Shown: piece by piece, positions 3,601 to 53,692 of the stretch
How the letters are laid out: each line of letters begins with the position of its first letter
Numbering within the stretch: the first letter of the stretch is position 1
Assembly (NCBI GenBank): GCA_015228815.1
Contig: JADGCV010000005.1
Span: 62,001 to 126,000, forward strand
Direction: 5' to 3'
Length of the DNA stretch: 64,000 nucleotides
Source of the DNA: Magnetococcales bacterium
Lineage (GTDB): Bacteria; Pseudomonadota; Magnetococcia; Magnetococcales; UBA8363
Translations under genes and position numbers: made by a program
Notes under the pieces: model-generated
The model's database searches: none
Told to the model about the DNA's origin: nothing
Seen by the model: only the letters and a program-made list of their open reading frames with translations

Positions 3601-6600
3601 TGTCCGGTCCCGGTGATTTGGCTGATGCGGGCAGCGACATCGATGATCAGGCGATTGCCGGTCCCCAGCTCGATGGTTTCAATATCTTGAATCCGATTGC
3701 TCATCCCGGTTGCGGCAAGATTCAGGGTCCACGAGGATCCATCCAATCGCAAGGTATCGCTGCCGCCACCGCCATCGATTTTTTTGAATGTGGCATCGGA
3801 GATGGCCAGGGTGTCGTTACCTGCCCCTCCGATCAATACATCCGCGCCACCGCTACCGGTCAGGGTGTCGTTGCCCAACTCTCCACGCAAAACATCAGCT
3901 CCGGTCGTGCCGGTGATGGTCTTGGCGGTGGTGGATACGCCCGCAAGGTTGCCACCGAAAACGACATAACTTGCCCCGGAATCACTGCTACCCATGTCGG
4001 CTCGATAGGCACCAATGATCAGATCGTCAAAGCCATCGCCATTGAGATCTCCGGCATCGCTGACCGCATGACCGCTCCAGTCAGCAGTTGCTTCTCCGTC
4101 GAGTCGAAATCCGCTACTGCCATTGAGGGTGGACAGATCGAGTTGGGGGGCAAAGTTGCTCGCTTTGCCAAACACGACATAACTTGAACCAGATTTACTA
4201 CTACCATTTGGGTCGGCATAGTCGGCACCAATGATCAGATCGTCGAAGCCATCGCCATTGAGGTCTCCGGCGCCACTGACCGAAAAACCGCTTCGGTCAT
4301 AGGCTGTGGCGCCATCAAGGCGAAATCCGTTGCTGCCATCGAGGGTGGACAGATCGAGTTGCGAATCAAATACACCCGCTTTGCCGAAAACAACATAACT
4401 TGAACCGGATTGTGTGCCACCACCCGGATTGGCCTTATAGGCACCGATAATCAGGTCGTCAAAGCCGTCGCCATTGACATCCCCGGCACTGCTGACCGAA
4501 CGACCGCTCCAGTCATTATCAACCTTTCCATCAAGTCGGAACCCGTTGGCGCCATCGAGGGTGGACAGGTTGAATTGTGAGGCAAAGCCAATCGCTTTGC
4601 CAAAAATGACATAACTCGCTCCGGGATAAAAGCCCGAACCGGCCCAAGGGGCACCCACGATCAGATCGTTGAAGCCATCGCCATTGACATCTCCGGCACT
4701 GCTGACTGAACGACCGCTAAAATCACTACCAGCCACCCCATCGAGACGAAACCCATTGTTGCCGTTAAGGGTGGACAGATCGAGTTGCGAGTCAAAGCCA
4801 TCCGCTTTGCCGAAAACTACATAGCTTGAACCGGACCGACTTCTGTTATTTGGGTCGGCAGCATAGGCACCAATGATCAGGTCGTCAAAGCCATCGCCAT
4901 TGATGTCTCCGGCGTTGCTGACCGAACGACCGCTCTGGTCAAAGGATGCTCCTCCGTCCAGTCGAAACCCGTTGCTGCCGTCAAGGGTGGAAAGACCGAT
5001 TTGCGTGGCAAAGCTCGCCTTGCCGAAAATGATATAACTTGCACCAGAACTGGTGCCACCCGGATCGGCATAAACGGCACCGATGATCAGGTCGTCGAAG
5101 CCATCGCCATTGACGTCCCCGGCACCGCTGACCGATTGACCGCTCCGATCGCCAGTCCCCACCGCATTCACCCCATCGAGACGAAATCCGTTGCTGCCGT
5201 TAATGGTGGAAAGATCCAGTTGCGAATCAAAGCCACTCGACTTGCCAAACACGACATAACTTGAACCGGAATCGGTGCCACCAAAATCCGCCAGCCTGGC
5301 GCCAACGATCAGATCGTCAAAACCATCGCCATTGACATCTCCGGCGCTGCTGACTGAATAACCGCTCAAATCCTGGGTCGCCGCCCCATCAAGGCGAAAT
5401 CCATTGCTGCCGTTGAGGGTGGCGAGTTGCAGTGTGGCGGGTTGAATGGAAGAGACCAGCGTGACCTCAATATCCGCATCGACCAGCAACCGGTTGCCAT
5501 CCTTCTGGTACAGATCGTAGGTTTGACCGCCCTCCGTGGCATGGTTGGCGGTGTGGGACCAGCCCGTGGTCAAAACCACCCGGTCGGAGGCGTCTCCTTT
5601 CACGGACAAGGTTTGTCCGGTTCCGGTGATCTGGCTGATGCGGGCGGCGGTATCGACCAACAGGAAATTGTGGGTTCCCAGATCGATGGTTTCGATCTCC
5701 TGGATTCGGTTGCTCATCCCGGTTGTGGCAAGATTCAATGTCACACCGGTCCCATCCAGCCTCAAGGTGTCGCTGCTTCCACCGCCATCGATTTTTTTGA
5801 AGGTCGCATCGTCGACGACCAAAATATCGTTGCCCGCGCCACCGATCAGCACGTCCGCGCCACCGTTGCCTGTCAGGGTGTCGTTGCCCAGACCTCCAAT
5901 CAGAATATCGGTTCCGGTCGTACCGGTCGGAGTCAGGGCGATGGTGGCAGCACCCGTAAAATTTTTGCCGAAAACGACATAACCAGCTCCGGAATCCGTG
6001 CCGCCCGGGTCGGCTCCATGGGCGCCAATGATCAGATCATCAAACCCATCGCTATTGATGTCTCCGGCACTGCTGACTGAAATACCGCTCTGGTCCGAAG
6101 CCGCCACCCCATCGAGGCGAAATCCGCTGTTGCTGTCAAGCATGAACAGATCGAGTTGCGAGGCAAATCCACTCGCTTTGCCAAACATGACATAACTTGT
6201 TCCGGAATTTTCGTCAGCCAAGTCGGATCCATTGGCGCCAATGATCAGATCGTCAAATCCATCGCCATTGACGTCTCCGGCACTGCTGACCGAACGACCG
6301 CTCCAATCCAAGGTTGCCGTTCCATTGAGACGAAATCCATTGCTGCCGTCGAGGGTGGCAAGATTGAGTTGGGAAACAAATCCACTTGCCTTGCCGAAGA
6401 CAATATAACTTGATCCGGAATCAACAATGCCACCCGGATCGGCGCCATGGGCACCCACGATCAGATCGTCAAAGCCATCGCCATTGATGTCTCCGGCACT
6501 GCTGACCGAAAAACCGCTCTGATCCGAGGCCGCTCCATAGATGCGAAATCCGTTGTTGTCACCAAGGGCGGCAAGGCTGAGTTGGGAAACAAATCCACTC

Positions 6601-9600
6601 GCCTTGCCGAAGATGACATGACTTGATCCGGATTGACTGCCAATGATCAGATCGTCAAAGCCATCGCCATTGACATCCCCGGCGTTGCTGACCGAAAAAC
6701 CGCTCTGATCCGAAGTCGCCGCCCCATCGAGGCGAAATCCGTTGCTGCCATCGAGGAGGTTGAGTTGGGAAACAAATCCACTCGCCTTGCCAAACACGAC
6801 ATAACTTGCCCCGGATTCATTGCCACCACCCGGGTTGGCTTTGGAGGCGCCAATGATCAGATCGTCGAAGCCATCGCCATTGATGTCTCCGGCGCTGCTG
6901 ACCGAACGACCGCTCAAATCATTGGCCGCTACCCCGCCGAGGCGAAACCCGTTGCCGTCGTTGATGGCAGACAGATTGAGTTGGGAAACAAAGCCACTCG
7001 CTTTGCCAAAGATGACATAACTTGCTCCGGAGGCAGAATCGGAACCCAGAGCACCAACGATCAGGTCGTCGAAGCCATCGCCATTGATGTCTCCGGCGTT
7101 GCTGACCGAAACACCGCTCCCATCACCAGCCGCCACCCCATCGAGACGAAATCCATTGCTGCCACCGAGGGTAGACAAATCGAGTTGGAAATCAAAGCCA
7201 TTTGCTTTGCCAAAGATGATATAACTTGTTCCTGAATTTGTACCACCCGACCCGGAATCGGAACCAAGAGCACCCACGATCAGGTCGTCGAAGCCATCGC
7301 CATTGATGTCTCCGGCGTTGCTGACCGAATAACCGCTTCCGTCACCAGCTGCCACTCCATCGAGCCGAAACCCGTTGCTGCCATCCAGGGTGGAAAGTTG
7401 AACCACTGGTTGTCCCTGTGTGATTGCAATATCCGCATCGACCAGCAACCGGTTGCCATCCTTTTGATAAAGATCGTAGGTTTGACCTCCCTCCGTGGTA
7501 TGGTTGGCGGTATGTGTCCAGCCTGTGGTCAGGCCAATCTGGTCGGAGGCATTGCCTTTCACATGCAAGGTTTGTCCGGTCCCGGTGATTTGGCTGATGC
7601 GGGCAGCGACATCGATGATCAGGCGATTGCCGGTCCCCAGCTCGATGGTTTCAATATCTTGAATCCGGTTGGCGCTACCGATTGCGCCAAGATTCAACGT
7701 CGAACCAGTTCCGTCCAGCCTCAAGGTGTCGCTGCCGCCGCCGCCATCGATTTTTCTGAATGTCGTATCGGAAATGGCTAAAATATCGTCACCCGCCCCT
7801 CCGATCAGCACATCCGCGCCACCTCCACCCGTCAGGGTATCGTTGCCCAGACCGCCACGCAGAATATCGGTTCCGGTCGTACCGGTGACGGTCTTGGGCG
7901 TAGTGGATACGCCTGCAAGGTTGCCACCAAAAACGACATAACTTGCCCCGGAATGCACGCCGCCGCCTGCGTCGGCTCGATAGGTCCCAATGATCAGGTC
8001 GTCAAACCCATCGCCATTGAGATCTCCGGCATCGCTGACGGCATAACAGCTCCCATAAAAAGAGATGGCTTCTCCGTCAAGTCGAAATCCGTTGCTGCCG
8101 TTGAGGGTGGACAGATCGAGTTGCGCGGCAAAATGGTTCGCTTTGCCGAAAATGACATAACTTGAACCAGACGTGCCGTATACATGTCTCATCCCGACAA
8201 GCAGATCGTCAAAGCCATCGCCATTGAGGTCTCCGGCACCGCTGACCGAAAAACCGCTATTGTCAATGACCGCTGCCCCATCAAGACGAAATCCGTTGCT
8301 GCCATCGAGGGTGGACAGATCGAGTTGCGAATCAAATACACCCGCTTTGCCGAAAACGACATAACTTGCACCGGATCGTGTGCCGCCACCCGGGTCTGCC
8401 CTATAGGCACCGATAATTATGTCGTCAAAGCCATCGCCGTTGATGTCTCCGGCACTGCTGACCGAACGACCGCTCCCGTCAGCATGAACTTCTCCATCAA
8501 GTCGGAACCCGTTGGTGCCATCGAGGGTGGACAGGTCGAATTGTGCGGCAAAGCCATTGATTTTTCCAAAAATAACGTAACTTTGTCCAGTGAAGCCTGG
8601 ATAATAGTTCGAACCGGCCCAAGGGGCACCAAGGATCAGATCATCGAAGCCATCGCCATTGACGTCCCCGGCATCGCTGACCGAACGACCGCTCCAACCA
8701 TCAGCCACCGCTCCATCAAGTCGAAATCCGTTACTGCCGTTGAGGGTGGACAGATCGAGTTGCGAATCAAATCCACCCGCATTGCCGAAAACCACATAAC
8801 TTGAACCGGAAAGATTTTTGCCATTTGGGTCGGCAGCATAGGCGCCGATGATCAGATCGTTAAAGCCATCGCCATTGACATCTCCGGCGCTGCTGACCGA
8901 ACGACCACTTCGATCTTCGGTCGATACCCCATCAAGGCGAAATCCATTGCTGCCGTCGAGGGTGGAAAGATTGATTTGCGCGGCGAAGTTCGCCGTGCCG
9001 AAGATGATATAACTTGACCCGGAGTTGGTGCGACCCGGATCGGCATAAGTAGCCCCCACGATCAGGTCGTCGAAGCCATCGCCGTTAACGTCCCCGGCAC
9101 CGCTGACCGAATGACCGCTCCGATCGTTAACCTCGATCTGATTCACTCCATCGAGGCGAAATCCGTTGCTGCCGTCAATGGTGGAAAGATCAAGTTGCGA
9201 ATCAAAGCCATTCGACTTGCCAAACACGACATAACTTGAGCCGGAATTGTAGCCGCCAAAATCTGCCAGCCTGGCGCCAACGATCAGATCGTCAAAACCA
9301 TCGCCATTGACATCTCCGGCGCTGCTGACTGAATAACCGCTCAAATCCCGGGTCGCCGCCCCATCAAGGCGAAATCCATTGCTGCCGTTGAGGGTGGCGA
9401 GTTGCAGTGTGGCGGGTTGAATGGAAGAGACCAGCGTGACCTCAATATCCGCATCGACCAGCAACCGGTTGCCATCCTTCTGGTACAGATCGTAGGTTTG
9501 ACCGCCCTCCGTGGCATGGTTGGCGGTGTGGGACCAGCCCGTGGTCAAAACCACCCGGTCGGAGGCGTCTCCTTTCACGGACAAGGTTTGTCCGGTTCCG

Positions 9601-12600
9601 GTGATCTGGCTGATGCGGGCGGCGGTATCGACCAACAGGAAATTGTGGGTTCCCAGATCGATGGTTTCGATCTCCTGGATTCGGTTGCTCATCCCGGTTG
9701 TGGCAAGATTCAATGTCACACCGGTCCCATCCAGCCTCAAGGTGTCGCTGCTTCCACCGCCATCGATTTTTTTGAAGGTCGCATCGTCGACGACCAAAAT
9801 ATCGTTGCCCGCGCCACCGATCAGCACGTCCGCGCCACCGTTGCCTGTCAGGGTGTCGTTGCCCAGACCTCCAATCAGAATATCGGTTCCGGTCGTACCG
9901 GTCGGAGTCAGGGCAATGGTGGCAGCACCCGTAAAATTTTTGCCGAAAACGACATAACCAGCTCCGGAATCCGTGCCGCCCGGGTCGGCTCCATGGGCGC
10001 CAATGATCAGATCATCAAACCCATCGCTATTGATGTCTCCGGCACTGCGGACTGAAATACCGCTCTGGTCCGAAGCTTCTGCCCCATCGAGGCGAAATCC
10101 GCTGTCGCTGTCAATCGTGGACAGGTCGATTTGCGTGGCAAATCCACTCGCTTTGCCAAATAGAACATGGCTTGATCCGGAATCCCCGCCATTCGGGTCG
10201 GCTCCATGGGCGCCAATGATCAGATCATCAAACCCATCGCCATTGACGTCTCCGGCACGGCTGACCGATCGACCGCTCCAATCCTGGGCCGCCACCCCAT
10301 CAAGACGAAATCCATTGCTGCCGTCGAGGGTGGCAAGACTGAGTTGCGAAACAAAGCCGCTTGCCTTGCCGAACACGACATAAGTCGCCCCGGAATCCCC
10401 GCCACCCACGTCGGCCCAATGGGCGCCAATGATCAGATCGTCAAATCCGTCGCCATTGATGTCTCCGGCACTGCCGACCGATCGACCACTCCGATCCGAA
10501 GTCGCCGCTCCATCGAGACGAAATCCATTGCTGCCGTCGAGGGCGGCAAGACTGAGTTGGGAAACAAATCCACCTGCTTTGCCGAAGACAACATAACTTG
10601 AGCCGGAATCACTGGCCGACCCGGCCCCGTAGGCGCCGATGATCAGGTCGTCAAACCCATCGCCATTGACGTCTCCGGCACTGCCGACCGAAAAACCACT
10701 CCAATCATCAACCGCTACCCCATCGAGGCGAAATCCATTGTTGCCATCGAGGGTGGACAGATCCAGTTGCGAACCAAAGCTGCCCGCTTTGCCAAATACG
10801 ATATAACTGGCCCCGGAATCATGGCCAGCCGGACCGGCTCCGTATGCCCCAATGATCAAATCGTCGAACCCATCGCCGTTGACGTCCCCGGCACTGCCGA
10901 CCGAAAAACCGCTCCAATCATCAACCGCTACTCCATCGAGACGAAATCCGTTACTGCCGTTCAGCGTGGACAGATCGATGTGCGCATCGAAGCCACCCGC
11001 TTTGCCAAACACGACATGACTGGCTCCGGACGCATCGCCACCCGGATCGGCTCCGTATGCCCCAATGATCAGGTCGTCGAAGCCGTCGCCATTGAGATCA
11101 CCCGCGTTGCTGACCGAAATACCGCTCCGATCCGAAGCTGCCGCCCCGTCGAGGCGAAATCCGTTACTGCCGTCAAGGGTGGACAGATCCAGTTGCGAAT
11201 CAAATCCACCCGCTTTGCCAAACACGACATGACTGGCTCCGGACGCATCGCCATTCAGGTCGGTCCCGTATGCGCCGATAATCAGGTCGTCAAAACCGTC
11301 GCCATTGACATCTCCGGCATTGCTGACCGAACGACCGCTTCGATCACCTGCCTCTGCCCCATCGAGGCGAAATCCGTCGCTGCCGTCAAGGGTGGAGAGT
11401 TGAATGATGCGGCGTTGAATTGTCTGTTGTTCCCACGGGACAACAAGATCTGCATCGACCAGCAACCGATTGCCATTTTTTTCGTACAGATCGTAGGTTT
11501 GACCTTCCTCCGTGGTATGGTTGGTGGTGCGAGACCATGTGGACAGGCCAGTAATCCGGTCGGAGGCGTTTCCTTTGACCTGGAGGGTACGTCCGGTCCC
11601 GGTGATTTGGCTGATGCGGGCAGAGGTATCGATGTTCAGGATATTGCCCGTCCCCAGATCGATGGTTTCGATGTCCTGGATGCGGTTGCTGATCCCGGTT
11701 GCGCCAAGGTCCAGCGTCAAACCGGTCCCCTCCAGCCTCAGGGTATCGTTGCCGCCGCCGCCATCGATTTTATTGAATGTCGCATCGGCGACGACCAGAA
11801 TATCGTCACCCGCCGCACCGATCAGCACATCCGCGCCACCTCTGCCTGTCAGGAGGTCGTCCCCCAACCCGCCACGCAAAAGATCGGCCCCGGTTGTTCC
11901 GGGGACGGTCTGGGGCGTGGTGGATATGCCCGAAAGATTGCTACCGAAGATGACATAACTTGCTCCGAACCCGCCTCCATCTCTACCATCCGGGTTGGCC
12001 CAATCAGCTCCGACAAGCAGATCGTCGAAGCCATCGCCATTGACATCTCCGGCACTGCCGACCGAACGACCGCTCCAATCATCGGTCGCTGCCCCGGCGA
12101 GTCGAAATCCATCATTACGGTCAAGAGTGGCAAGATCAAGTTGCGAAACGAATCCAATGGCTTTTCCGAAAATGACATAACTTGATCCGGAATCACTGCC
12201 ACCCGACTCGGAACGAAAAGCGCCAACGATCAGATCATCAAAACCATCACCATTGAAGTCTCCGGCGCCACTGACCGAAAAACCGCTTTGATCGCCTGCC
12301 GCTCCATCGAGGCGAAATCCGTTGTTGCCGTCAAGGGTGGAAAGATCGAGTTGGGAAGCAAAGCCACTCGACTTGCCAAATACGATATAACTTGACCCGG
12401 ACAAATTGCCATTCGAGCCGGCTCCAAAGGCTCCGATGATCAGATCGTCGAAGCCATCGCCATTGATGTCTCCAGCTTTACGGACCGAAATACCGTTTTG
12501 ATCATCTGCTGCCGCTCCATCGAGGCGAAACCCGTTGCTGCCATCAAGGGTGGACAGATCGAGTTGCGAAACAAATCCATCCTTCTTGCCAAACACGACA

Positions 12601-15600
12601 TAACCTGCTCCGGAATGACTCCCCCCCACGTTGGCATGATCGGCACCGATGATCAGATCGTCGAAGCCATCGCCATTGACGTCTCCGGCACTGCTGACCG
12701 AACGACCGCTGTGGTCGCCCGATGCCGCTCCATCGAGACGAAATCCGTTGCTGCCGTCGAGGGCGGCAAGATTGAGTTGTGAAACAAAGCCATCCGCTTT
12801 GCCGAAAACGACATAACTTTTCCCGGACTGACAGCCACATTCGTCGGCTTTATAAGCGCCAATGATCAGATCATCGAAGCCATCGCCATTGAGGTCTCCG
12901 GCACTGCTGACCGAACGACCGCTATAGCCCGAAGCCAGCGCCCCATCGAGACGAAATCCGTTGCCACCGTCAAGGGTGGCAAGATTGAGTTGCGAAACAA
13001 AACCGTCCGCTTTGCCAAAAATGACATAACTTGAACCGGAATCGGTTCCACCCAGGTCAGCCATACGAGCGCCAACGATCAGGTCATCAAAGCCATCGCC
13101 ATTGACGTCCCCGGCACTGCTGACCGAAATACCACTTTGGTCACCGGATGTTGCCCCATCAAGGCGAAATCCGTTGCTGCCATTGAGGGTGAACAGATCC
13201 AGTTGCGAAACAAAGCCATCTGCCTTGCCGAAAACTATGTAACTTGATCCGGACCAATGACCATTCGGGTTGGCTCCTCGGGCGCCAACGATCAGATCGT
13301 CAAAACCATCGCCGTTGACATCTCCGGCGCCACTGACCGAGTAACCGCTCCAATCATAGGCCGACACTCCATCAAGGCGAAATCCGTTGCTGCCATCGAG
13401 GGTGGAGAGTTGCAGGGTGGAGGTGTGAAGGGAGGATACCCATGTGATCTTGATATCCGCATCGATCAGCAATTGGTTGCCGTCCTTTTGATAAAGATCG
13501 TAGGTTCGGCCTTCATCCGCGTCCGTGGTACGGTCGGTGTGGGACCAGACGGTGGTCAGGATCACCCGGTCGGAGGCGTTTCCTTTGACCTGGAGGGTGC
13601 GCCCAGTTCCGGTGATTTGGCTGATGCGTGCGGCGGAATCGATCAAGAGAAGATTGTCGGTTTCCAGATCGATGGTTTCGATGTCCTGGATGCGATGGCT
13701 CATTCCGGTTGCGCCAAGATCCAGGATCAGGCCGGTGCCACTCAGCTTCAAGGTATCGTTGCCGCCGCCACCATCGATTTTCTGGAATATGGTCTCGGAG
13801 ATGATCAGGGTGTCGTGGCCTGCCCCCCCGATCAATACATCCGCGCCACCGCCACCCGTCAGGATGTCGTTCCCCAAACCTCCACGAAAAAGATCGGCTC
13901 TGGTCGTACCGGTCGGAGTCAGGGCGATGGTGGCAACATCCGTAAAATTTTTGCCGAAAACGACATAACCCGCTCCGGAACTCGTGCCATTCGGGTCGGC
14001 CCCAGGGGCGCCGATGATCAGGTCATCGAAGCCATCGCCATTGACATCTCCGGCATTGCTGACCGAATGACCGCTCCAATCATAATCCATGACTCCATCG
14101 AGTCGAAGTCCGCTGTTGCGATTGAGGGTGACCAAATCGAATTGCGCGGCAAATCCACTCGCTTTGCCGAAGACAATATAACTTGATCCGGAATACCCGC
14201 CGCCCAGATCGGATCCAGGGGCGCCGATGATCAGATCGTCAAGACCATCACCATTGATGTCTCCGGCGCCGCCGACCGAAACGCCGCTCTGGTCCAGAAC
14301 CATCGCCCCATCGATGCGAAATCCGTTGTTGCCATCGAGGGTGGACAGATCGAATTGTGTGGCAAATCCATTCGCTTTGCCAAACAGAACATAGCTTGCT
14401 CCGGAATCCTCGCCTTTCGGGTCGGATTCCGGAGCGCCGATCATCAGATCGTCAAACCCATCGCCATTGACGTCTCCGGCACTGCGGACCGAAACACTGC
14501 CCGATACCCCCTCGATGCGAAAGCCGTTGCTGCCGTCGAGGGTGGACAGATTGAATTGCGTGGCAAATCCACTTGCTTTGCCAAACACGACATAATTTGC
14601 ACCGATGATCAGATCGTCAAACCCATCGCCATTGACGTCTCCGGCGCTGCGGACCGAAACACTGCCCGATACCCCCTCGATGCGAAAACCGTTGCTGCCG
14701 TCGAGGGTGGACAGATCCAGTTGCGACACAAATCCACTTGCCTTGCCAAACACGACATGATTTGCACCGATGATCAGATCGTCAAAACCATCGCCATTGA
14801 GGTCTCCGGCACTGCTGGCCGAAACACTGCCCGATACTCCCTCGATGCGAAAACCGTTGCTGCCGTCAAGGGTGGACAGATCCAGTTGCGACACAAATCC
14901 ACTTGCCTTGCCAAACACGACATAATTTGCACCGATGATCAGATCGTCAAAACCATCCCCATTGGCATCTCCGGCACTGCTGACCGAAACACTGCTCCGA
15001 TCATCCGCCGCCACCCCATTGAGGCTGAGGCGAAATCCATTGCTGCCATCGAGGGTGGATAGATCGAGTTGTGCGTTAAAGCCGCCCGCCCTGCCAAAGA
15101 CAACATAACTTGATCCGGAATCATTGCCATTCAGGTCGGTCCCATAGGCGCCGATGATCAAATCGTCAAAACCATCGCCATTGACATCTCCGGCATTGCT
15201 GACCGAAACACCGCTATAGTCCAAGGCCGCCACCCCATTGAGGCGAAACCCGTCGTTGCCGTCAAGGGTGGAGAGTTTCGTGGTGAAGTCGTGAATCGTC
15301 GGTTGTTCCACCGTCACGGCAATGTCTGCATCGACCAGTAACAGGTTGCCATTTTTTTGATAAAGATCGAAGGATTGATCTTCCACCGTGGCATGGCTGG
15401 CTGTGTGGGACCAGCCTGTGGTCAGGATCACCTGGTCGGAGGCGTCTCCTTTGACCTGGAGGGTGCGTCCGGTCCCGGTGATTTGGCTGATGCGGGCAGC
15501 GGTATCGATGTTCAGGGTATTGTGGGTTCCCAGCTCGATGGTTTCGATGTCCTGGATGCGGTTGCCGATTCCGGTTGCGCCAAGGTCCAGCGTCAAACCG

Positions 15601-18600
15601 GTCCCATCCAGCCTCAGGGTATCGTTGCCGCCACCGCCATCGATTTTTTTGAATGTGACATCGGAGACGACCAGAATATCGTTACCCGCCCCCCCGATCA
15701 GCACATCCGCGCCACCTCCGCCCGTCAGGGTATCGTCTCCCAAACCGCCACGCAAAAGATTGGCTTCGATCGTTCCGACAATCACTGTTGGCGTGGAGGC
15801 GTGTCCTGTCAGGTTGCTGCCGAAAACGACATGACTGGCCCCGGAGTGACCGCCAGAGGGGTTGGCCCCATGGGCGCCGATGATCAGGTCGTCGAAGCCA
15901 TCGCCATTGATGTCTCCGGCGCTGCTGACCGAACGACCGCTATAACCAAAGTTCTCTGTCCCATCGAGGCGGAAGCCCTTGCCGTTATCGAGGGCGGCAA
16001 GATTGAGGTGCGCGATAAACCCATCCGCCTTGCCGAAAAAGACATAACTTATTCCAGACTTGGTGAGTCCATCATGGTCGGCCTCATCGGCGCCAACGAT
16101 CAAATCATCAAACCCATCGCCATTGAAGTCTCCGGCACTGCTGACCGAAATACCGCTCTGGTCAAAGGCTTCCGCTCCATCAAGACGAAACCCGTTGTTG
16201 CCGTCAAGGGTGGACAGATCGAGTTGCGAATCAAATCCACCCGCTTTGCCGAAGATGACATAATTTGATCCAGAACTGCTCCCACCCAGGTCGGCCCGAG
16301 GAGCGCCAACAATCAGATCGTCAAACCCATCGCCATTGACATCGCCGGCGCCACTGACCGAAAAACCGCTCTGGTCGCCGTCCGTCCCAGCGAGACGAAA
16401 TCCGTTGTTACCGTCGAGGGTGGCAAGATTGAGTTGCGAAACAAATCCACCCGCTTTGCCAAACACGACATAACTTGAATCTGCCGCGTGGGCGCCAATG
16501 ATCCAATCATCGAAGCCATCGCCGTTGAGATCCCCGGCGCTTTTGACCGAAAAACCGCTTCTGTCATCGGTTGTTCCATCGAGGCGAAACCCGTTGTCGC
16601 CGTCAAGGGTGGACAGATCGAGTTGTGCAACGAATCCGCCTGCCTTGCCGAAGATGATATAACTTGATCCGGAATGATTCCCACCCCGGTCGGATCCAGA
16701 GGCGCCGATGATCAGGTCGTCAAAGCCATCGCCATTGACATCCCCGGCACTGCTGGCCGGAATGCCGCTCCAATCATGAGCCGCCGCCCCATCGAGACGA
16801 AATCCGTTGCTGCCGTCGAGGGTGGACAGATCAAGTTGCGAAGCAAATCCACCCGCCTTGCCGAAAATGACATAACCTGCTCCGGAATTGTTTCCACCCA
16901 CGTCGGCATAAAGGGCGCCGATGATCAGGTCATCGAAGCCATCGCCATTGATGTCTCCGGCACTGCCGACCGAACGACCGTTTTGGTCCCCGGTTGCCAC
17001 CCCATCGAGGCGAAACCCGTTGCTGCCATCGAGGGTGGACAGATCAAGTTGCGAAGCAAATCCACCCGCTTTGCCAAACACGACATAACTCGCTCCGGAC
17101 TCACTGCCATTCGGGTCGGCTTTATAGGCGCCAATGATCAGATCGTCAAAGCCATCGCCATTGACATCTCCGGCGTTGCTGACCGAAAAACCACTATAAT
17201 CACCGGCTGCCACCCCATCGATGCGAAATCCGTTGCTGCCATCGAGGGTGGACAGTTGAATGACGGATCGGGGAAGGATGGTGATGGCATTGGAGGCCAG
17301 GGTTTCATTTGTGCCATGGCCATCGGTATAGGAAACCATGAGGCGGATCGATCTGGCGACATCGGAATCTTTTGAACTGTAGATGGCCTCGGTGGCCCCG
17401 ACGATGGCGCTCCAGGTCGTTCCCTCATCGCCGGAACGTTGCCACTGCCAGGACAGGGTTCCCAGACCATCTTCATCAGCAATGGTACCGGTGTCGGTGA
17501 TCAGAAGACCACCTGCCACGCTGTTTCCAGAAATGACCACCGTTCCCGTGGGGGAATCGTTGATATTGGCGACAGGGTTGGTAACCGCGCTTGCGACCTG
17601 TTCCGCAACCCCATGACCATCGGTATACCGGGCAACCACGGTGAGGGTCTGGCCGACATGCCTTTCCGTCAGAAGCAAGGTGTCGCCCGTGGCTCCGGGG
17701 AGTTCGATGCCGTTCGCCCGCCATTGATAGCCGACCGTTCCCAATCCCCCCGCGTCCGCCAGGGTATGGGTGACGGTCAATGTGTGTCCCTGCATCACCG
17801 TTCCATGAATGGTGATGGACCCTGTCGGGGGGCCATTGACATAAAACGGCGTGGTTGTCGATGGAGCAGACGGTTCCGTGATGTCGGACGACGTGGTCGT
17901 GGATGGCGTGAACAGATCCGTGATGTCGAACGACGTGGTCGTGGATGGAATGAACAGTTCCGTGATATCGAACGACGTGGTTGTGGGTGGAATGAACGTT
18001 TCTGGAGCCTGTGGTGTACCGTCGGCAAGCGGGGTCGGGAGTTCCGGTTCGGGGGCGCCGTTGGAAGGCGCAACCATGAATTCTGGTTCAGGGGCACCGT
18101 CGGAAAGCAGTGCCAGGAGTTCCACTTCGGGAGCGTCGTCGGCAGGCAGTGCCAGGAATTCCGGTTCAGTGGCGTCGTCGGCAGGCGGGGCCGGCAGTTC
18201 TGGTTCCGCAATGTCCTGTGTGTTTTCTGTTTCGGAGGATTCAATTCTGTCGGGAAGGGGTGTTTCAACCGGAAGGGGGTCCGTGGTGGTGACTTCGGGT
18301 TCCGTCATTCTGTTGGATGGTGTTCCTGGTGGCGTGACCAACAGACCGACGACGTTTCCCACCGCTTTCAGGGCCACTTCGGTCCCTTGCAACGTACCAC
18401 CCGAATCGATGAGATCAGCCAGGGACAGGGACAACGAGCCGATGGCGCTTCCCACGGACCCCAGGTCCACATCGGCCCCTTGCAACGCATCACCCGAACC
18501 AATAAGCTCGGCCAGGGACAAGGCACCCATCTCCACGGCGGGTCCCGTGTTCACGACCTCATTCACCCTTTGGGGCGCGGTTGTGGGTGTTGCCTCATTG

Positions 18601-38372: not shown

Positions 38373-41009
38373 ATGAAAATGCACAAAGGGGTCAAGAGGT
38401 TCATTTTCGTGGTGTCGCGTTTTGTTCCGGCATCCTTCCTGATTCTGCTCACGATCCTTTCCGTGGTCCTGTTCCTGATGTTCTTTCAATACTCATGGCG
38501 CGCAACCTTTCTGGAGTGGACCGGTATCCGACCGCCGTTTATGATCGAGGTCAAATCTCCCTGGGTGCGGTTGCACCCCTTGGAACTGGGAAGCGATGGT
38601 GTCCGGATCTTCTTTATTTCGGGGGCGACGCTCAATCTTGACCGGGTGGTCATCGGCGCCGGCATGGGAATCCTGACGCGATGGTCGCTTGAATATCTTC
38701 GTCTGGACAGACCGGTGTTGCGCTTGCCGACGCCGGTGACCGCCATGGAATACGCGGCGGATGAATCCAGGGAAGATGCGCGGGAAATGTTTTTTCCCTG
38801 GCCGTTCGGGATCGATGGGGTGGAAATCGTGGCGGGGGAGGTGATTCAAGCGGCGATTCCGGGAAAGGAAGGGTGGCGGATTCATGATCTTTCCCTTCTC
38901 GGTCAGGATCTGACTACCGAAGCCATCGAGATTCATTTCAATGCCCGGGCCGATCCCGGAGGGGGGATCCATGGGGTGGTGCGTTGGCGGGCGAGGGGTG
39001 ATCTCGATGTGGTGACTCATGCCGATGGCGCCCCTCTGGCCGGGATTTCCCGGTGGCTGGGGCGTTCCGGTCTCTCGGGAACCCTGGTGGGCGATCTTGA
39101 GGCCTCGCGCCGTCCGGGTGCGGGATTGACCGTGAAACTGGCCGGACAGGTGTCTGGATGGGGGTATGGTCGCTGGGGTGGCGATTTGAAGGTGGAGGCG
39201 GCGGGAGATGGGGAACGGTTGTGGGGGCGGTTTCATGGTCTGGTCCGTCCGGGGCCGGGGGAACGATTCGTGCCGCTGGGTGGACGATGGTTGGCTGCGG
39301 GCGTGCGGACGGGAAAGGACTGGACCCTGAACGGGGAACTGGATGGGGGCGCCCTGGGACGGTTGACCCTGACCCGTGCGGCGGGGGCATGGAACGTCGG
39401 TGTGGGGCCGGGGAACGGAATCGATTTGAATCGGGTGTCGCGGTTTGTGCCCGGATGGGGGACGGCGCCGGGGGTCAAGGGGCGACTCCAGGGACGTTTG
39501 ACGTTGCGTGGTCCGGAAACAAATGGGTCGGTGGCGTTTGATTATCGCCTCCGGGTCCGCAAGGGGGAATGGAGCGCTCCGAAAGATGCGGCCATGGAAG
39601 GGGTCGAGGCCGTGGTCCGTGGAACGGGACGGGTGTCCGCGGGCGGGGAAGGTCATGGCAGCCTTGACCTTTCGCTCGTGTCGGGAGAATGGCTGGTCGG
39701 AACCCTCTATGGCAATCTGGCCCGGGAAGAGGCGCGGGCAAGGCTCGATGGCGTCTGGGATGGGGACGGGGTGACGACGGTTGCGGGTGAAGTGACGGGG
39801 CGGACGGGGCGTCTGCATTCAATTTCCTGGAAACGGGGCCGGGATGGTTTTCTGCTTGGGGCCACCCTCGAAAAGGGGGACCTGGGCTGGTTGAGCGAAA
39901 ATTATTTCCAGGGTTTCTCCGCTTCCGCGGGGCGGGGTGGTGAAACGGCGATACGGGTTCGGGGTCTTGCGTGGGGAACCTTGTCGGGAAAGTTTACGTC
40001 ACGGGGAATACCCGACTTTTCGACCTTGAAGGGTTTGATCGAACTCGATGAAGGGGAGGTGGTGGCGGGTGGGGTGCGGGCTTCCGGCGTCCGACTCCGG
40101 TTGCCTCTTCACGGGGCGGATACGTCGGTTCCGGTGACGCCGGGGATGTTCAAGGTCACTTCCCTGACGGTCGGGGACATGGCATTGCCTTCCATCGGCC
40201 TGGCCCCAACCTGGCATGGCGGCGATCTCCGCATGGGGGGCGCCTGGACCGGTCCGTTTCAGGGGGGAACGATTCGTCTGGATCGGATATCCCTGTCACT
40301 CGCCGGTGTACCAGGATTGGCAATGGCGGGGATGGGGCGGGATGTGCAATTTTCCCTGCCCTTTGCCGCGAACCAGCCGGTTCGCGTGGATTTTGATTTT
40401 CCTTTGATCCAGGTTCTTCCGAACGGCGTGTCCCTGGAAGGGACCGTGACGGCATTTCTGTTCGGGGGCGTGGCCAGGGGGTCGGGGTTGGGAATGGTCT
40501 GGAACGGTCCCTCTCCGGAATGGCGGGCCGACATCGATTTTTCCGAACTTGATCTGGAACGGCTGACGGAAGCCACCGGAATCGGCAGAATCACGGGGAC
40601 CCTGTCGGGGGAGATCCTTCGGTTGCGCGTGGTGGGAGACACACCTGTCGCCTTCCAGGCCCGGGTGGCGACCGTTCCGGGAAAAACGACCCAGACGATT
40701 CATGTCAAGGCACTGGAAAATATTCAGATCCTTGGGGGTGGCGGTGCGGCGGCTTCCCTGAATCGCGGGATCATGGCGCTTTTCAAGGAATACCGTTATC
40801 GCACTTTGGGCTTTCAGTGTACATTGAAAAACGATATGTTTGAACTTTCCGGCGTCCGCAATGAAAACGGCAAGTCATGGCTCGTCGAAGGGGGATGGGT
40901 GCCGCCAAAGGTGGATGTGGTCAGTCATCAACGGTCGATTCCCTGGACGGAGATGATCGACCGTTTGCGGTCGATCGGTCGGAGCGATGAAAAGCCTATC
41001 GTCCGATGA
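38373..41009 (+). CDS. AsmA/YdbH-like envelope protein
   Basis: An 878-residue protein with one N-terminal transmembrane anchor (FLILLTILSVVLFLMFF) and a long beta-rich periplasmic body, as in AsmA/TamB/YdbH proteins that bridge inner and outer membranes for phospholipid transport. The C-terminal part (IHVKALENIQILGGGGAAASLN, FKEYRYRTLGFQCTL) resembles the YdbH C-terminal region. GGGAGGGGGCAAG precedes the ATG. A YdbL-like gene lies downstream at 44295; in enterobacteria ydbH-ynbE-ydbL form one operon. The last 61 bp are part of a direct repeat (see 40949-41009), so the present 3' end abuts an inserted R-M system but the reading frame is intact. Confidence 0.75.
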   Translation: MKMHKGVKRFIFVVSRFVPASFLILLTILSVVLFLMFFQYSWRATFLEWTGIRPPFMIEVKSPWVRLHPLELGSDGVRIFFISGATLNLDRVVIGAGMGILTRWSLEYLRLDRPVLRLPTPVTAMEYAADESREDAREMFFPWPFGIDGVEIVAGEVIQAAIPGKEGWRIHDLSLLGQDLTTEAIEIHFNARADPGGGIHGVVRWRARGDLDVVTHADGAPLAGISRWLGRSGLSGTLVGDLEASRRPGAGLTVKLAGQVSGWGYGRWGGDLKVEAAGDGERLWGRFHGLVRPGPGERFVPLGGRWLAAGVRTGKDWTLNGELDGGALGRLTLTRAAGAWNVGVGPGNGIDLNRVSRFVPGWGTAPGVKGRLQGRLTLRGPETNGSVAFDYRLRVRKGEWSAPKDAAMEGVEAVVRGTGRVSAGGEGHGSLDLSLVSGEWLVGTLYGNLAREEARARLDGVWDGDGVTTVAGEVTGRTGRLHSISWKRGRDGFLLGATLEKGDLGWLSENYFQGFSASAGRGGETAIRVRGLAWGTLSGKFTSRGIPDFSTLKGLIELDEGEVVAGGVRASGVRLRLPLHGADTSVPVTPGMFKVTSLTVGDMALPSIGLAPTWHGGDLRMGGAWTGPFQGGTIRLDRISLSLAGVPGLAMAGMGRDVQFSLPFAANQPVRVDFDFPLIQVLPNGVSLEGTVTAFLFGGVARGSGLGMVWNGPSPEWRADIDFSELDLERLTEATGIGRITGTLSGEILRLRVVGDTPVAFQARVATVPGKTTQTIHVKALENIQILGGGGAAASLNRGIMALFKEYRYRTLGFQCTLKNDMFELSGVRNENGKSWLVEGGWVPPKVDVVSHQRSIPWTEMIDRLRSIGRSDEKPIVR
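40949..41009. repeat. Left copy of 61-bp direct repeat flanking the R-M system
   Basis: The last 20 codons and stop of the YdbH-like gene. Identical to 43187-43247 except at 40997 (T against C). Similarity fades but continues for some 15 bp to the right (TTGGAAGAA against CTGGAAGAA). Confidence 0.95.
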
Positions 41010-41074
41010 CAGGTTGGAAGAACAGGTCAGAAGCTTTTGAAGGTGATCATTCGCTGTACGACAAGGACTACGGC

Positions 41075-41908
41075 ATGATACAGGATGAACGTGATGTCCG
41101 ATATCTTGAAATCGTGATGGAGCCGATTCGAGCCTGTGCCAATTATACTCCAAAATTTGGCAAGGGTCGTGGCGATGGCCTGTCTTTGCCGGAATTTCTG
41201 ACCCTTTATCGGTCCGACCCGTTTTATGCCTGGTTTGGCCTTGACAACCCCTTGATGTATGCTGCTCACAAGGCTGCTGGCGGCATGACGAGCGTTTATC
41301 GCCAGATCGGTATCGGTTGTGAAAAATTATTCCGACAAGTTTTGTGTGACCATCTTGGGCTGTCGGTCGAGGCTGTAAACTGGTCTTATACCGTACCTAC
41401 GTCTGGAGGGAAAACGCGCACGCTTCATCTGGATGGTCGGGTTTCCCTGGCCGACATTCGCAACACCTCCACCCGAAAGCGATTTCACGGCTGGATGGAG
41501 CAGGCTGCCGCTGCGGCAGGTGTGGCCAAACCAGTGTTTGCATCACTTGCCGGCGTCGTTTTCGAGATTCGCCAAGGCTACAAAAGCAAGGATTCCAAGC
41601 GTCAGAATGCCGATATCGCCAACGCTTCAATTGCCTATGCCAACGCTTATCTGCCTTGTGCTGTCATTCTCTCGGCTCAAATCGATGACGATGTTTTGTT
41701 GCGCTACCGTCGTGATCGGTGGTCCGTACTCATAGGTATCGTCGGATCGAATGATTCGCTCGAATCTACCTATGAGTTTATGGCTGAGATTATCGGATAT
41801 GATCTTGCAGGATTTTTTCAACGCAATAGAGTTGCATTGAGGGCCGAAATCGACATCGTGTTGCGGGCCTTGTTGGCCCCTGAAACTCCATGGAGGGAGG
41901 TTGAATGA
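41075..41908 (+). CDS. Putative type II restriction endonuclease
   Basis: No family motif is certain, but the gene is coupled (ATGA, 41905-41908) to a DNA methyltransferase and has the size of a type II enzyme (277 aa from ATG 41075). That start has AAGGA upstream; an ATG at 41006 is in frame but lies in the stop codon of the preceding gene, inside the duplicated target DNA, and has no ribosome site. A possible PD-(D/E)XK-type core lies in ...VVFEIRQGYKSKDSKRQNAD (about residues 160-180). The methyltransferase partner resembles M.CfrBI-type enzymes, so a CfrBI-like specificity is a guess. Codon use is less GC-rich than the flanking genes. Confidence 0.72.
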   Translation: MIQDERDVRYLEIVMEPIRACANYTPKFGKGRGDGLSLPEFLTLYRSDPFYAWFGLDNPLMYAAHKAAGGMTSVYRQIGIGCEKLFRQVLCDHLGLSVEAVNWSYTVPTSGGKTRTLHLDGRVSLADIRNTSTRKRFHGWMEQAAAAAGVAKPVFASLAGVVFEIRQGYKSKDSKRQNADIANASIAYANAYLPCAVILSAQIDDDVLLRYRRDRWSVLIGIVGSNDSLESTYEFMAEIIGYDLAGFFQRNRVALRAEIDIVLRALLAPETPWREVE

Positions 41909-43161
41909 CTTCTCTACTGACTGCCCGATCGCTTGCCACATTTCGTTCCGATCTGCGTCAGCGGGCCGATTACACGCATAAATACAATTACCAGAGCGGT
42001 CGTCATGGATGGTTGCGTCTTACTCCCGCCTATTCTGTAAAGATGGTTGAAGAGATGCTGTCTAACGGTCCGAGGGATCCCTCCCATGTACTTGACCCTT
42101 TTTGTGGTACAGCCACGACTGCCCTGTGCGCCGTGAACCGGGGCCATGAGGCAACCACGATCGAGATCAATCCTTTTCTGGTATGGCTGGCTGCCACGAA
42201 AACGGCCCCTTATGCCATTGCCACGCTCAAGACGACGCGGTATGCGTGCGACGAAGCCTTGGCTCTGGTCGCCAAACGCAATGCGTCCCTTATGCCCGAA
42301 CCTCCCATTCATAACATTGCCCGCTGGTGGAATATCCCGGCCCGGCACTTCTTGCGCAAGCTGCGGCCTGCAATCGAGCAGGTCACGGTACCTGGCTCCG
42401 CCGAATGTTCTCTGTTGAAGGTGGCTTTCTGTCGCACCCTCATCACATTGTCGAATGCCGCTTTCAACCACCAATCCATGTCATTTTGCAATGATGACCA
42501 GACCCGATCGGATTCGCCTTCCGATCTGTCCGGATTGTTTCGTGATGACGTGTCCCATGTTCTTGCCGGGGCGATGCAGGCCCCGCAAGGAGAGGTCCAC
42601 ATTATCCATGGCGATGCCAGAGCCTTGCATCTTGTGAAAGATCGTTTCGATCTTGTGATTACTTCGCCACCTTACGCCAACCGCATGTCTTATGTTCGAG
42701 AGTTGCGACCCTATATGTATTGGCTGGGCTATCTTGCCAATGGTCGTGATGCTGGTGAACTCGACTGGAAGGCAATTGGAGGAACCTGGGGCATTGCTAC
42801 CAGTCGTTTGGCGGATTGGCAACCGAATCGCGAGACGTTTACTCCAAAATGGCTGGCGCCGATTCTGGATGCCATTGCCCACAACGATCATGCGAACGGT
42901 CGCTTGTTGGCCAACTACATCGCCAAATACTCTGAAGATATGTGGCATCATTTTATCGGCCTGTCCAAGATCATGGTTCCAGGAGGAAGGATTCATTATA
43001 TTGTTGGCAATTCAACTTTCTACGGCACCTTGTTGCCGACCGAGCGGCTTTATGTCGATATGTTGGCCGAACTTGGCTTCAGCAATCTTGCGATAACGCC
43101 GATACGTAAACGCAATTCGAAGAAAGAGCTTGTGGAATTTGATGTTTCCGGACGGGCATGA
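41905..43161 (+). CDS. Site-specific DNA methyltransferase (probably N4-cytosine) of the R-M pair
   Basis: A 418-residue enzyme with a strong GGAGGGAGG site in front of its ATG, which overlaps the endonuclease stop. SAM-binding motif I is DPFCGTATT (residues 64-72); catalytic motif IV is TSPPY (253-257), the S/T-PPY form seen mostly in N4-cytosine methyltransferases. Motif I precedes motif IV with an unusually long spacer, which may hold the target-recognition region. It protects host DNA from the upstream endonuclease. The pair sits between 61-bp direct repeats. Confidence 0.88.
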   Translation: MTSLLTARSLATFRSDLRQRADYTHKYNYQSGRHGWLRLTPAYSVKMVEEMLSNGPRDPSHVLDPFCGTATTALCAVNRGHEATTIEINPFLVWLAATKTAPYAIATLKTTRYACDEALALVAKRNASLMPEPPIHNIARWWNIPARHFLRKLRPAIEQVTVPGSAECSLLKVAFCRTLITLSNAAFNHQSMSFCNDDQTRSDSPSDLSGLFRDDVSHVLAGAMQAPQGEVHIIHGDARALHLVKDRFDLVITSPPYANRMSYVRELRPYMYWLGYLANGRDAGELDWKAIGGTWGIATSRLADWQPNRETFTPKWLAPILDAIAHNDHANGRLLANYIAKYSEDMWHHFIGLSKIMVPGGRIHYIVGNSTFYGTLLPTERLYVDMLAELGFSNLAITPIRKRNSKKELVEFDVSGRA

Positions 43162-43186
43162 ACTAATTTTGATCGGATTGGAAGAA

Positions 43187-43247
43187 GGAGATGATCGACC
43201 GTTTGCGGTCGATCGGTCGGAGCGATGAAAAGCCCATCGTCCGATGA
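43187..43247. repeat. Right copy of 61-bp direct repeat flanking the R-M system
   Basis: Reproduces the 3' end of the YdbH-like gene, still readable as MIDRLRSIGRSDEKPIVR plus stop, but without the rest of the gene. It lies 25 bp after the methyltransferase stop. One mismatch to 40949-41009. Confidence 0.95.
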
Positions 43248-43340
43248 TGGTCTGGAAGAAGTCAAAGGGATTGTTCCCCAGGTCTTTGGTGGTGACATTG
43301 TATCCACGGTCGTGTTGTACCCGTCCCTGTGAGGCCGATC

Positions 43341-44195
43341 ATGCCTGAACTCTACCCCATCGAGGATCAACATCTTGATGATGCGTGCCGGTTTCTTCAC
43401 GCCAATCTTAATGGCAAGGTCTCTCCCGATGAATGGAAGGTCGTTTATCGCCGTCCCTGGGATCCTGAAAAGCCGAATAATGGTTTCATGTTGCGGCATC
43501 AGGACCGGATCGTCGGGGTCTTCATGGCCATTTACAGCCGGAGGATGATTCGGGGCCGCGTGGAACGATTCTGCAATCCCAACAGTTGGGTCGTTGAAAA
43601 GGATTTTCGAACACAGAGCATGTTGTTGCAGCGTGCCCTGCTGGCGCAGAAAGAGCGGCACTTTTTCATCACCACGCCCAATCCTGTCGTCGCCAAGATT
43701 TTCAGAAGATCCAGGTTTCAATACATGCCGGACCAGATTACGGTGATTCCCTGTTTTCCCTGGATTCCTCTTGGCCGTGATTTTGCGGAGATCATCGATT
43801 CCGGAGAGGATCTTGAAAATCTTCTGGACGCATCCTGCCGTCAAATCTTTGCGGACCATCGTGACATTCCCTGGTTGCATCATGTGGCCGCAGGTGTTCC
43901 GGGGCGTTACGTGTACGTGATCTTCAAAAAAAAACGGTTAAAAAAGATGAACAGCGTTCGCATTTTATACATGAGCAACCCGGATCGTTTTCCTGGCTGT
44001 CGTCATCTGTTGTCAAACTATTTTTTGCGACGCCATTTTGCGGTTACCATGCAGATCGACCATCGTTTTCTTGGCATGACGCTCCCCTTTTCCCTGCACC
44101 GCCAGGAAACTCAACCAAGGATGTTTCTCAGCGATTCTTTGGGGGCGTCTGACTTTGGTTACATTTATTCCGAATCCGCGGCCATGGATCAGTGA
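43341..44195 (+). CDS. GNAT-like acyltransferase, substrate unknown
   Basis: A 284-residue protein beginning MPELYPIEDQHLDDACRFL, with GAGG six bases upstream. The N-terminal 140 residues have the strand-helix pattern of a GNAT fold (LRHQDRIVGVFMAIYSRR, NSWVVEKDFRTQSMLLQRAL), with the acetyl-CoA loop poorly conserved. The C-terminal half is unassigned. Similar proteins occur in polysaccharide loci. It sits between the R-M insertion and the YdbL-like gene. Confidence 0.6.
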   Translation: MPELYPIEDQHLDDACRFLHANLNGKVSPDEWKVVYRRPWDPEKPNNGFMLRHQDRIVGVFMAIYSRRMIRGRVERFCNPNSWVVEKDFRTQSMLLQRALLAQKERHFFITTPNPVVAKIFRRSRFQYMPDQITVIPCFPWIPLGRDFAEIIDSGEDLENLLDASCRQIFADHRDIPWLHHVAAGVPGRYVYVIFKKKRLKKMNSVRILYMSNPDRFPGCRHLLSNYFLRRHFAVTMQIDHRFLGMTLPFSLHRQETQPRMFLSDSLGASDFGYIYSESAAMDQ

Positions 44196-44294
44196 CGGAT
44201 TCGAATGGAGCGGCTTTGATGTCATCGTTCGAATCTCCCGTTTCTTCGCTTAAGGGGGAGATGTGGGCAAGCGCAACCTTTGGGAGGAAGAGAA

Positions 44295-44957
44295 ATGGGC
44301 CTGTCGCGTTTGGCTGGGGGAATGGTCGGGTTGTTGACGATGCTGTTGGCCGCCTGTGTCACCGTCAATGTCTATTTTCCCGCTCCGGCGGTGGATCAGG
44401 CGGCGCAACGGATCGTGCGCGAGGTGTGGAGCGGCATGAAGCCACCCGAATCTTCCATGGAAGAAAAGAAAACTCCCGAGAATCAGCCGGTACCCGCCCA
44501 GCCTCGGGAAAAGAGCGTTCCCGAACGGCAATCGTTGCGCTCGCATTCCCTGTTGGTGATCGTCAACGCCGTGCTGTCATGGACGGTCCCTTCCGCGGCG
44601 GCAGCGGATCTTGATGTTTCCTCCCCGGCCATCCGTGACATCGCCGGACGCCTGAAGAATCGGGCTGGAGGGGCATTGAAACCCTTTCTTTTTGGTGGCC
44701 AGGTGGGCATCAATCGTGACGGTGATCTGGAAATTCGTTCCGAGGAGGGGCTGCCGTTGCAGCAAAAAGGAGCGTTGCGTTCCTCGGTTCGCGAGGACAA
44801 TATCGATCGCGCCCAACTTTATCGGGAAATCGCCGTGGCCAACGGCCATCCGGAGTGGGAGGCGGACATACGGGCCCGGTTTGCCTTGAAATGGGTTTCC
44901 GAGGCGCCGGCAGGTTGGGCGGTGCAGAAACCGGATGGCTCGTGGGTGAAAAAGTGA
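44295..44957 (+). CDS. YdbL/DUF1318-like lipoprotein
   Basis: A 220-residue protein starting at ATG 44295, with GGAGG seven bases upstream. A lipobox LLAAC places the lipid on Cys21; CVTVNVYFPAPAVDQAAQRIV directly after it is the usual start of DUF1318 lipoproteins. The C-terminal ~100 residues carry the YdbL pattern (IRDIAGRLKNR, QLYREIAVANGHPEWEADIRARFA, APAGWAVQKPDGSWV). YdbL works with YdbH and YnbE in envelope phospholipid transport in E. coli. Here the YdbH-like gene is 3.3 kb upstream. A Pro-rich insert and a second hydrophobic segment (LLVIVNAVLSWTVPSAAAA) lie between lipobox and domain, so a fusion of two lipoproteins or proteins is possible. Confidence 0.8.
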   Translation: MGLSRLAGGMVGLLTMLLAACVTVNVYFPAPAVDQAAQRIVREVWSGMKPPESSMEEKKTPENQPVPAQPREKSVPERQSLRSHSLLVIVNAVLSWTVPSAAAADLDVSSPAIRDIAGRLKNRAGGALKPFLFGGQVGINRDGDLEIRSEEGLPLQQKGALRSSVREDNIDRAQLYREIAVANGHPEWEADIRARFALKWVSEAPAGWAVQKPDGSWVKK

Positions 44958-50488: not shown

Positions 50489-51616
50489 ATGAAGGCCCCG
50501 ATTCTCTGCGTTGTGGGAGCGCGTCCCAATTTCATGAAGATGGCGGCGATTCTGCCGGCGCTCAAGGCAGTCGGTCTGGAGACGCGGCTGATTCATACCG
50601 GTCAGCACTATGATCCCGCCATGAAGGAAACCTTTTTTCGTCAGTTGGGAATTCCCGAACCCGATCTGGACCTTGGGGTGGGATCGGGGAGTCATGCGGT
50701 GCAGACGGCACGGATCATGATGGGATTCGAGCCGGTTATCGACTCCTTGCAACCGGCGGCGGTGTTGGTGGTTGGGGATGTCAATTCGACCATTGCCTGC
50801 GCCTTGGTGGCGGTCAAGAAGGGGGTTGGGGTCATCCATGTCGAGGCGGGTCTGCGCAGTCGCGACCGGGGGATGCCGGAGGAGATCAATCGGATTTTGA
50901 CCGATCGCCTTTCCGATTTCCTGTTTACCACGGAGCGCGGTGCCGGGGAAAATCTGCGGGCAGAGGGGATCGAGCCAGACCGAATCCACTTCGTGGGCAA
51001 TGTCATGATCGATACCTTGTTTCGACTGCTGCCGTTGGCGCCCTCGGTGTCGCAAATCCTCGAATCGGATTATCGGGGGGCATGGTCGGGATATGTCCCC
51101 GGTCTGGAATACGGTCTGGTGACCTTGCACCGTCCTTCCAATGTGGACGATCCCGTGGTGTTCGAGGCGTTGATGACGACTCTGGCGCGGCAAAGTCAAA
51201 AATTGCCTTTGGTGTTTCCCGTTCATCCTCGAACCCGGCAGCGTTTTGTTGACCAGGGCCTGGAAAGGGTGATGCACGGGGCCCGATTGATTTTGTTGCC
51301 GCCGGTGGGGTATCTGCAAATGTTGGGATTGATGAAATCGGCCCGGGTCATTCTGACCGATTCGGGTGGAGTTCAGGAAGAATCGACCGCTCTGGGCTGT
51401 CCCTGCCTGACGCTGCGCGACAATACCGAGCGTCCGGTGACGGTGACGGAAGGGACCAATACGGTGGTGGGTCGGGATCCGGAACTGATCGATCGGGTGA
51501 TGGATGACATTTTGCGTCATGGTGGCAAGGGTGGTCGGGTGCCGGAATTGTGGGATGGTCATGCGGCCCCCCGAATCGCCCGGTGCCTTGTAGAATCCTT
51601 TACAACCAGTCTTTGA
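50489..51616 (+). CDS. wecB: UDP-N-acetylglucosamine 2-epimerase (non-hydrolysing)
   Basis: A 375-residue WecB. Motifs: VVGARPNFMKMA at the N-terminus, TGQHYDPAM, HVEAGLRSRDRGMPEEINR, PVHPRTRQRF and TDSGGVQEE (UDP-binding). It interconverts UDP-GlcNAc and UDP-ManNAc in the cytoplasm, supplying a sugar for the polymer made by the surrounding operon. AAAGGAAAAGAA lies upstream of the ATG. Residues 1-375 cover the whole family length. Confidence 0.95.
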   Translation: MKAPILCVVGARPNFMKMAAILPALKAVGLETRLIHTGQHYDPAMKETFFRQLGIPEPDLDLGVGSGSHAVQTARIMMGFEPVIDSLQPAAVLVVGDVNSTIACALVAVKKGVGVIHVEAGLRSRDRGMPEEINRILTDRLSDFLFTTERGAGENLRAEGIEPDRIHFVGNVMIDTLFRLLPLAPSVSQILESDYRGAWSGYVPGLEYGLVTLHRPSNVDDPVVFEALMTTLARQSQKLPLVFPVHPRTRQRFVDQGLERVMHGARLILLPPVGYLQMLGLMKSARVILTDSGGVQEESTALGCPCLTLRDNTERPVTVTEGTNTVVGRDPELIDRVMDDILRHGGKGGRVPELWDGHAAPRIARCLVESFTTSL

Positions 51617-51661
51617 CAGAAAAAAGGGGGACCCGCCGTAGCAGGGAATGACGGGGGATCG
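51613..51661. repeat. REP-like repeat, copy 1
   Basis: A 49-bp element starting within the wecB stop codon, with CCCGCCGTAGCAGGGAATG at its core and G-rich flanks that allow partial pairing. It matches 53644-53692 at 45 of 49 positions. Confidence 0.8.
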
Positions 51662-53643: not shown

Positions 53644-53692
53644 TTGAAAGAAAAAAGGGGTTCCCGCCGTAGCAGGGAATGGCGGGGGATCG
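53644..53692. repeat. REP-like repeat, copy 2
   Basis: Begins 11 bp after the FemAB-like stop. CCCGCC (53663-53668) and GGCGGG form a perfect inverted repeat around the conserved core. Four mismatches to the copy at 51613-51661. Confidence 0.8.

Follow-up and report, generated by a model that had tools for sequence, protein, structure and literature searches.

It has long been an open question how a bare pair of restriction-modification (R-M) genes can enter a chromosome with no transposase to move it. A locus that bears on it lies in a 64,000-nucleotide stretch of DNA from a Magnetococcales bacterium, the whole of which is referred to here as the window. At this locus a Type II R-M pair stands between the 3' end of a ydbH-like gene and a second copy of that same end, and the question is how the genes and the extra copy came to be there. 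An earlier note on this DNA had proposed insertion with a long target duplication. Coordinates are those of the window, and the genes and segments of the locus all lie on its + strand.

The R-M pair and the repeat around it

Copy 1 of the repeat (40949-41009) comprises the final 61 bp of the ydbH-like gene (codons ...EMIDRLRSIGRSDEKPIVR and the stop), while copy 2 (43187-43247) is noncoding and is located 25 nt past the stop codon of the methyltransferase gene (43161). As the earlier note had described, the copies differ by one mismatch: 60 of the 61 positions are identical, the single difference is T/C, and the spacing is 2,238 bp. Self-BLAST of the window recovers the repeat with an E value of about 1e-24. 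The in-register ungapped similarity between 40946-41022 and 43184-43260 reaches 77 bp (92% identity), because TGGAAGAA follows both copies. In the organism's own 4.2-Mb genome the 61-bp sequence is present only twice. It was not found, chance matches aside, in 47 other genomes of the order, the weak matches there falling within unrelated coding genes, nor were matches obtained in viral contigs (exact 24-mer search) or in plasmid and phage collections. With two copies in its own genome and none in relatives, viral contigs, plasmids or phages, a dispersed repeat was rejected as an explanation. A survey of an 812-kb genome sample for direct repeats, tandem pairs excluded, with a length of at least 40 bp, an identity of at least 88% and a spacing of 0.3-15 kb (the giant repeat gene of the window was left out) returned only six pairs elsewhere. 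One palindromic-looking, REP-like 49-bp pair in the window (CCCGCCGTAGCAGGGAATG; 51613-51661 and 53644-53692) was considered as a comparable case and rejected, since it is a dispersed element with approximately 20 genome copies. A very large region of the window (1680-17260) is built of repeats, with unit lengths near 213 bp and near 2 kb; it may be a giant adhesin gene.

The segment between the copies (41010-43186; 2,177 bp) contains only the frames of a Type II restriction endonuclease and a methyltransferase, and no transposase or integrase was found in 40949-43247; the earlier reading of a two-gene segment is thus borne out. Flanking insertion sequences are likewise absent, the flanks being ydbH and an acetyltransferase-like gene. 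The endonuclease gene (41075-41908, its probable start placed by the N-termini of nine homologues) matches PADLOC PDLC03512 (E value 3e-85), as do all 10 of the endonuclease homologues. Pfam contains no family for this protein, and a sequence search of solved structures gave no match. Its AlphaFold model (pLDDT 86) has weak fold matches, none significant (E values above 0.03), to several restriction enzymes including PspGI, EcoRII, Ecl18kI and MspJI. The methyltransferase gene (41905-43161), whose start overlaps the end of the endonuclease gene by ATGA, matches PADLOC MTase_II (E value 8e-24) and Pfam N6_N4_Mtase, and its product includes the motifs DPFCGT ... SPPY. The pair is accordingly a predicted Type II R-M system.

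The longest endonuclease frame begins, as had been noted earlier, at ATG 41006 within the duplicated host DNA, where it overlaps the ydbH stop codon by 4 bp. That translation starts there, which was meant to explain the lack of a ribosome site, was not upheld. The nine homologues align only from about residue 24 of this frame, and they favour ATG 41075. Since AAGGA is positioned 7 nt upstream of that codon, the true start is probably ATG 41075, and the ribosome site is probably not missing.

The host gene and the corresponding site in a related species

The ydbH-like gene (38373-41009; 878 aa) is intact despite the duplication of its 3' end, as proposed in the earlier note. Its product has 46% identity to the orthologue in G002, a genome of another species in the same genus (about 74-76% DNA identity), over residues 1-878. 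The 61 bp encode a C-terminus that can be aligned with five relatives, and copy 1 is therefore host sequence. In E. coli the gene order is ydbH-ynbE-ydbL (PMC8593681). The native downstream neighbour here is a DUF1318 gene (YnbE/YdbL-like; 44295-44957; PF07027, E value 6e-16), which adjoins ydbH in G002, G019, G025 and G026. Among the same-genus genomes, the ydbH-like gene was detectable with this query in G002 only. Contig C81 of that genome is collinear with the window from 34.8 to 52.2 kb, to the left and the right of the insertion, and its ydbH gene ends 40 nt before the start of the DUF1318 gene, an arrangement equally tight and in the same order in G019, G025 and G026. The R-M pair is absent from this junction, where the 61 bp have just one counterpart, orthologous but diverged. 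In the window, by comparison, the two genes are 3,285 nt apart, a distance made up of the R-M segment, copy 2 and the acetyltransferase-like gene.

This last gene, which the earlier note did not anticipate, belongs to a second foreign block (43248-44294; gene at 43341-44195, named by eye) that separates copy 2 from the DUF1318 gene and is also missing between ydbH and DUF1318 in G002. A counterpart with 74% identity is found in G002 on contig C83, where it adjoins a phosphoheptose-isomerase-like gene and PelF/PelG-like genes (likewise named by eye). The region past copy 2 shows no homology signal to the region upstream of that counterpart. Because copy 2 sits between the R-M and acetyltransferase genes and not beside the DUF1318 gene, the simplest order of events is that the acetyltransferase block entered first and the R-M pair second. 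Judged by sequence comparison, the G002 junction represents an empty site for both the R-M pair and the acetyltransferase block, and not the exact pre-insertion junction, since the latter block also entered at this point.

The G+C content of the insert (0.518) is below that of ydbH (0.613) and of the window (0.568), which favours an insertion. However, low G+C runs on past copy 2 (43248-44250; 0.50-0.51 over 43248-44279), and so composition alone cannot bound the R-M insert.

Related R-M loci and competing explanations

Homologues of the endonuclease occur in nine other loci in very different hosts. In eight of the nine a methyltransferase gene follows; the viral contig L048 has the endonuclease homologue and no methyltransferase match. 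The pair is rare and patchy, being present in 2 of 399 genomes of the phylum, and further in Methylophilus, Anaerolineae, Ectothiorhodospiraceae, Lachnospiraceae, Clostridia and viral contigs. The DNA common to the nine homologous loci consists of the R and M genes only. The suggestion that the same pair might be flanked by other long repeats elsewhere failed, as none of the nine carries direct repeats around the pair (L035 and L036 end within the methyltransferase gene, and their far flank lies outside this comparison). The absence of such repeats argues that the repeat is host-derived and not part of the R-M unit, and ends borne by the element itself were rejected on the same ground.

For this one locus in one genome bin, we consider it likely that a Type II R-M unit of two genes entered ydbH at its 3' end and duplicated 61 bp of target. 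This reading is favoured by the syntenic relative, which lacks the R-M genes and has a single, diverged counterpart of the 61 bp, and by the non-dispersed nature of the repeat, and neither of the results that the earlier note named as contrary to it, i.e., both copies in relatives lacking the R-M genes or a repeat dispersed at many sites, was encountered. We infer that the insertion event itself produced the duplication. A mobile two-gene unit would have entered the 3' end of the ydbH-like gene, and the target of 61 bp (up to about 74-77 bp) would have been duplicated with one copy on each side, possibly through staggered breakage or through repair synthesis joining the R-M DNA to the ends of a widely nicked target. 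Joining might have occurred at short matches (TGGAAGAA, GGAG), possibly aided by the hairpin-forming target. The copy resident in ydbH preserves the host gene, and the direct repeats would permit later loss of the R-M unit by recombination. An identical scar would be left by integration of a circle or by the action of an integrase in trans.

A circular R-M molecule bearing a ydbH end could have recombined with the chromosomal ydbH end, either through an integrase in trans or by homologous, Campbell-type single crossover. Many integrase sites lie at gene 3' ends and restore the gene, and the repeat observed here is found at a gene 3' end, restores that gene and contains a palindrome. However, the segment encodes no integrase, searches of the genome and its relatives, and of phages, plasmids and viral contigs, yielded no third copy of the site, and the related R-M units have no such end, all of which makes this route unlikely. 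We regard as very unlikely a process in two steps, in which a tandem duplication of 61-77 bp preceded entry of the R-M genes between the copies, with TGGAAGAA perhaps an ordinary 8-bp target duplication. The occurrence of TGGAAGAA at both insert ends and again past copy 2 would be in keeping with it, as would the unit GGAGATG...TGGAAGAA, which measures 74 bp in each copy; yet no relative has the tandem duplication, a transposase is lacking, inspection by eye showed no terminal inverted repeats, and the five bases preceding TGGAAGAA differ between the copies. An assembly artefact, in which an R-M contig was joined to ydbH via a short repeat, might be suspected given that the draft genome consists of 96 contigs, probably binned from a metagenome, and that contig C2 carries at its end an exact 55-bp repeat resembling an assembly k-mer edge. 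That repeat (G000:C2 1-55 and 4697-4751) is probably such an edge, and its copies give one gene different 3' ends. The repeat at the R-M locus, in contrast, is not exact, its copies differing at one position; it is embedded in a 145-kb contig, both of its flanks are collinear with G002, and an artefact is exceedingly improbable. Insertion with target duplication is thus the explanation that we prefer.

A genome-wide rule of defence modules flanked by long repeats was considered and is not supported, since one further case has an element-borne repeat and another lies amid dispersed repeats. A Gabija pair (G000:C2, L090, 14823-18599; gajA 14977-16713 and gajB 16695-18593) is flanked by a 60-bp direct repeat of 92% identity. 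This repeat is the 3' end of gajB, and hence is element-borne, perhaps the remnant of a tandem copy; the site is present without Gabija in G002 (C97). A HicAB-like toxin-antitoxin pair, identified by eye, lies between 41-bp direct repeats (G000:C28 27518-28305; L066 7518-8305) within a patchwork of repeats that are scattered across the genus.

Junction features and relation to known insertions

The repeat includes a perfect palindrome with 9-bp arms, GATCGACCG-TTTG-CGGTCGATC (40955-40976, also 43193-43214), the sole inverted repeat of the window with arms of at least 9 bp and a loop of 3-8 nt. At up to two mismatches it occurs in the genome at these two sites only. As RNA, the 61 bp would fold into two adjacent hairpins that extend from 6 nt off one end to 2 nt off the other, the first hairpin being the perfect inverted repeat. 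The fold of copy 2 is -29.7 kcal/mol (z -3.7 against shuffles), and that of copy 1 (-27.6) is among the best 1.2% of same-length windows. The orthologous G002 sequence is without the first hairpin. At the left end of the insert, TGGAAGAA (41015-41022) is an 8-mer which also touches copy 2 (43179-43186) and follows it (43253-43260); the similarity of the right-hand extension was matched by 6 of 1500 random pairs. Both the hairpins and the recurrence of TGGAAGAA may bear on mechanism; having been noticed after the fact, they are suggestive only. We think it unlikely that the two hairpins, which nearly fill the 61 bp, set the length and position of the duplication by causing a break or template switch.

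R-M insertion with long target duplication was reportedly described by Nobusato et al. (2000, Gene 259:99) and Furuta et al. (2010, NAR 38:2428). Reviews describe these duplications as long and variable, of the order of 100 bp (PMC3874152, PMC3031569), and there is a case in H. pylori (PMC4978471). The mode of insertion is therefore already known, and this locus is probably a clean new example of it. Like the known insertions, it lacks a mobile element, has a long direct repeat of the target and is absent at the site of a relative. It differs in lineage, in its target, which is an intact gene's 3' end and folds into two hairpins, and in that the empty site comes from another species. In IS-linked R-M movement (PMC3031569) an R-M unit likewise enters the chromosome, whereas here there is neither an IS nor a short IS-type target duplication with inverted repeats. 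Integrative elements that use gene 3' ends as attachment sites also leave a direct repeat that restores the host gene, but here no integrase is present and the site is not found elsewhere.

With one mismatch in 61 bp, the locus is a clean and fairly fresh scar, for which the host target can be identified, an interspecies empty site is available and the junction features can be measured. Were the hairpin proposal true, DNA structure would guide the long target duplications that R-M units make. The example lies outside the bacteria where the long-duplication mode was described, and it is suited to comparison with other such insertions.
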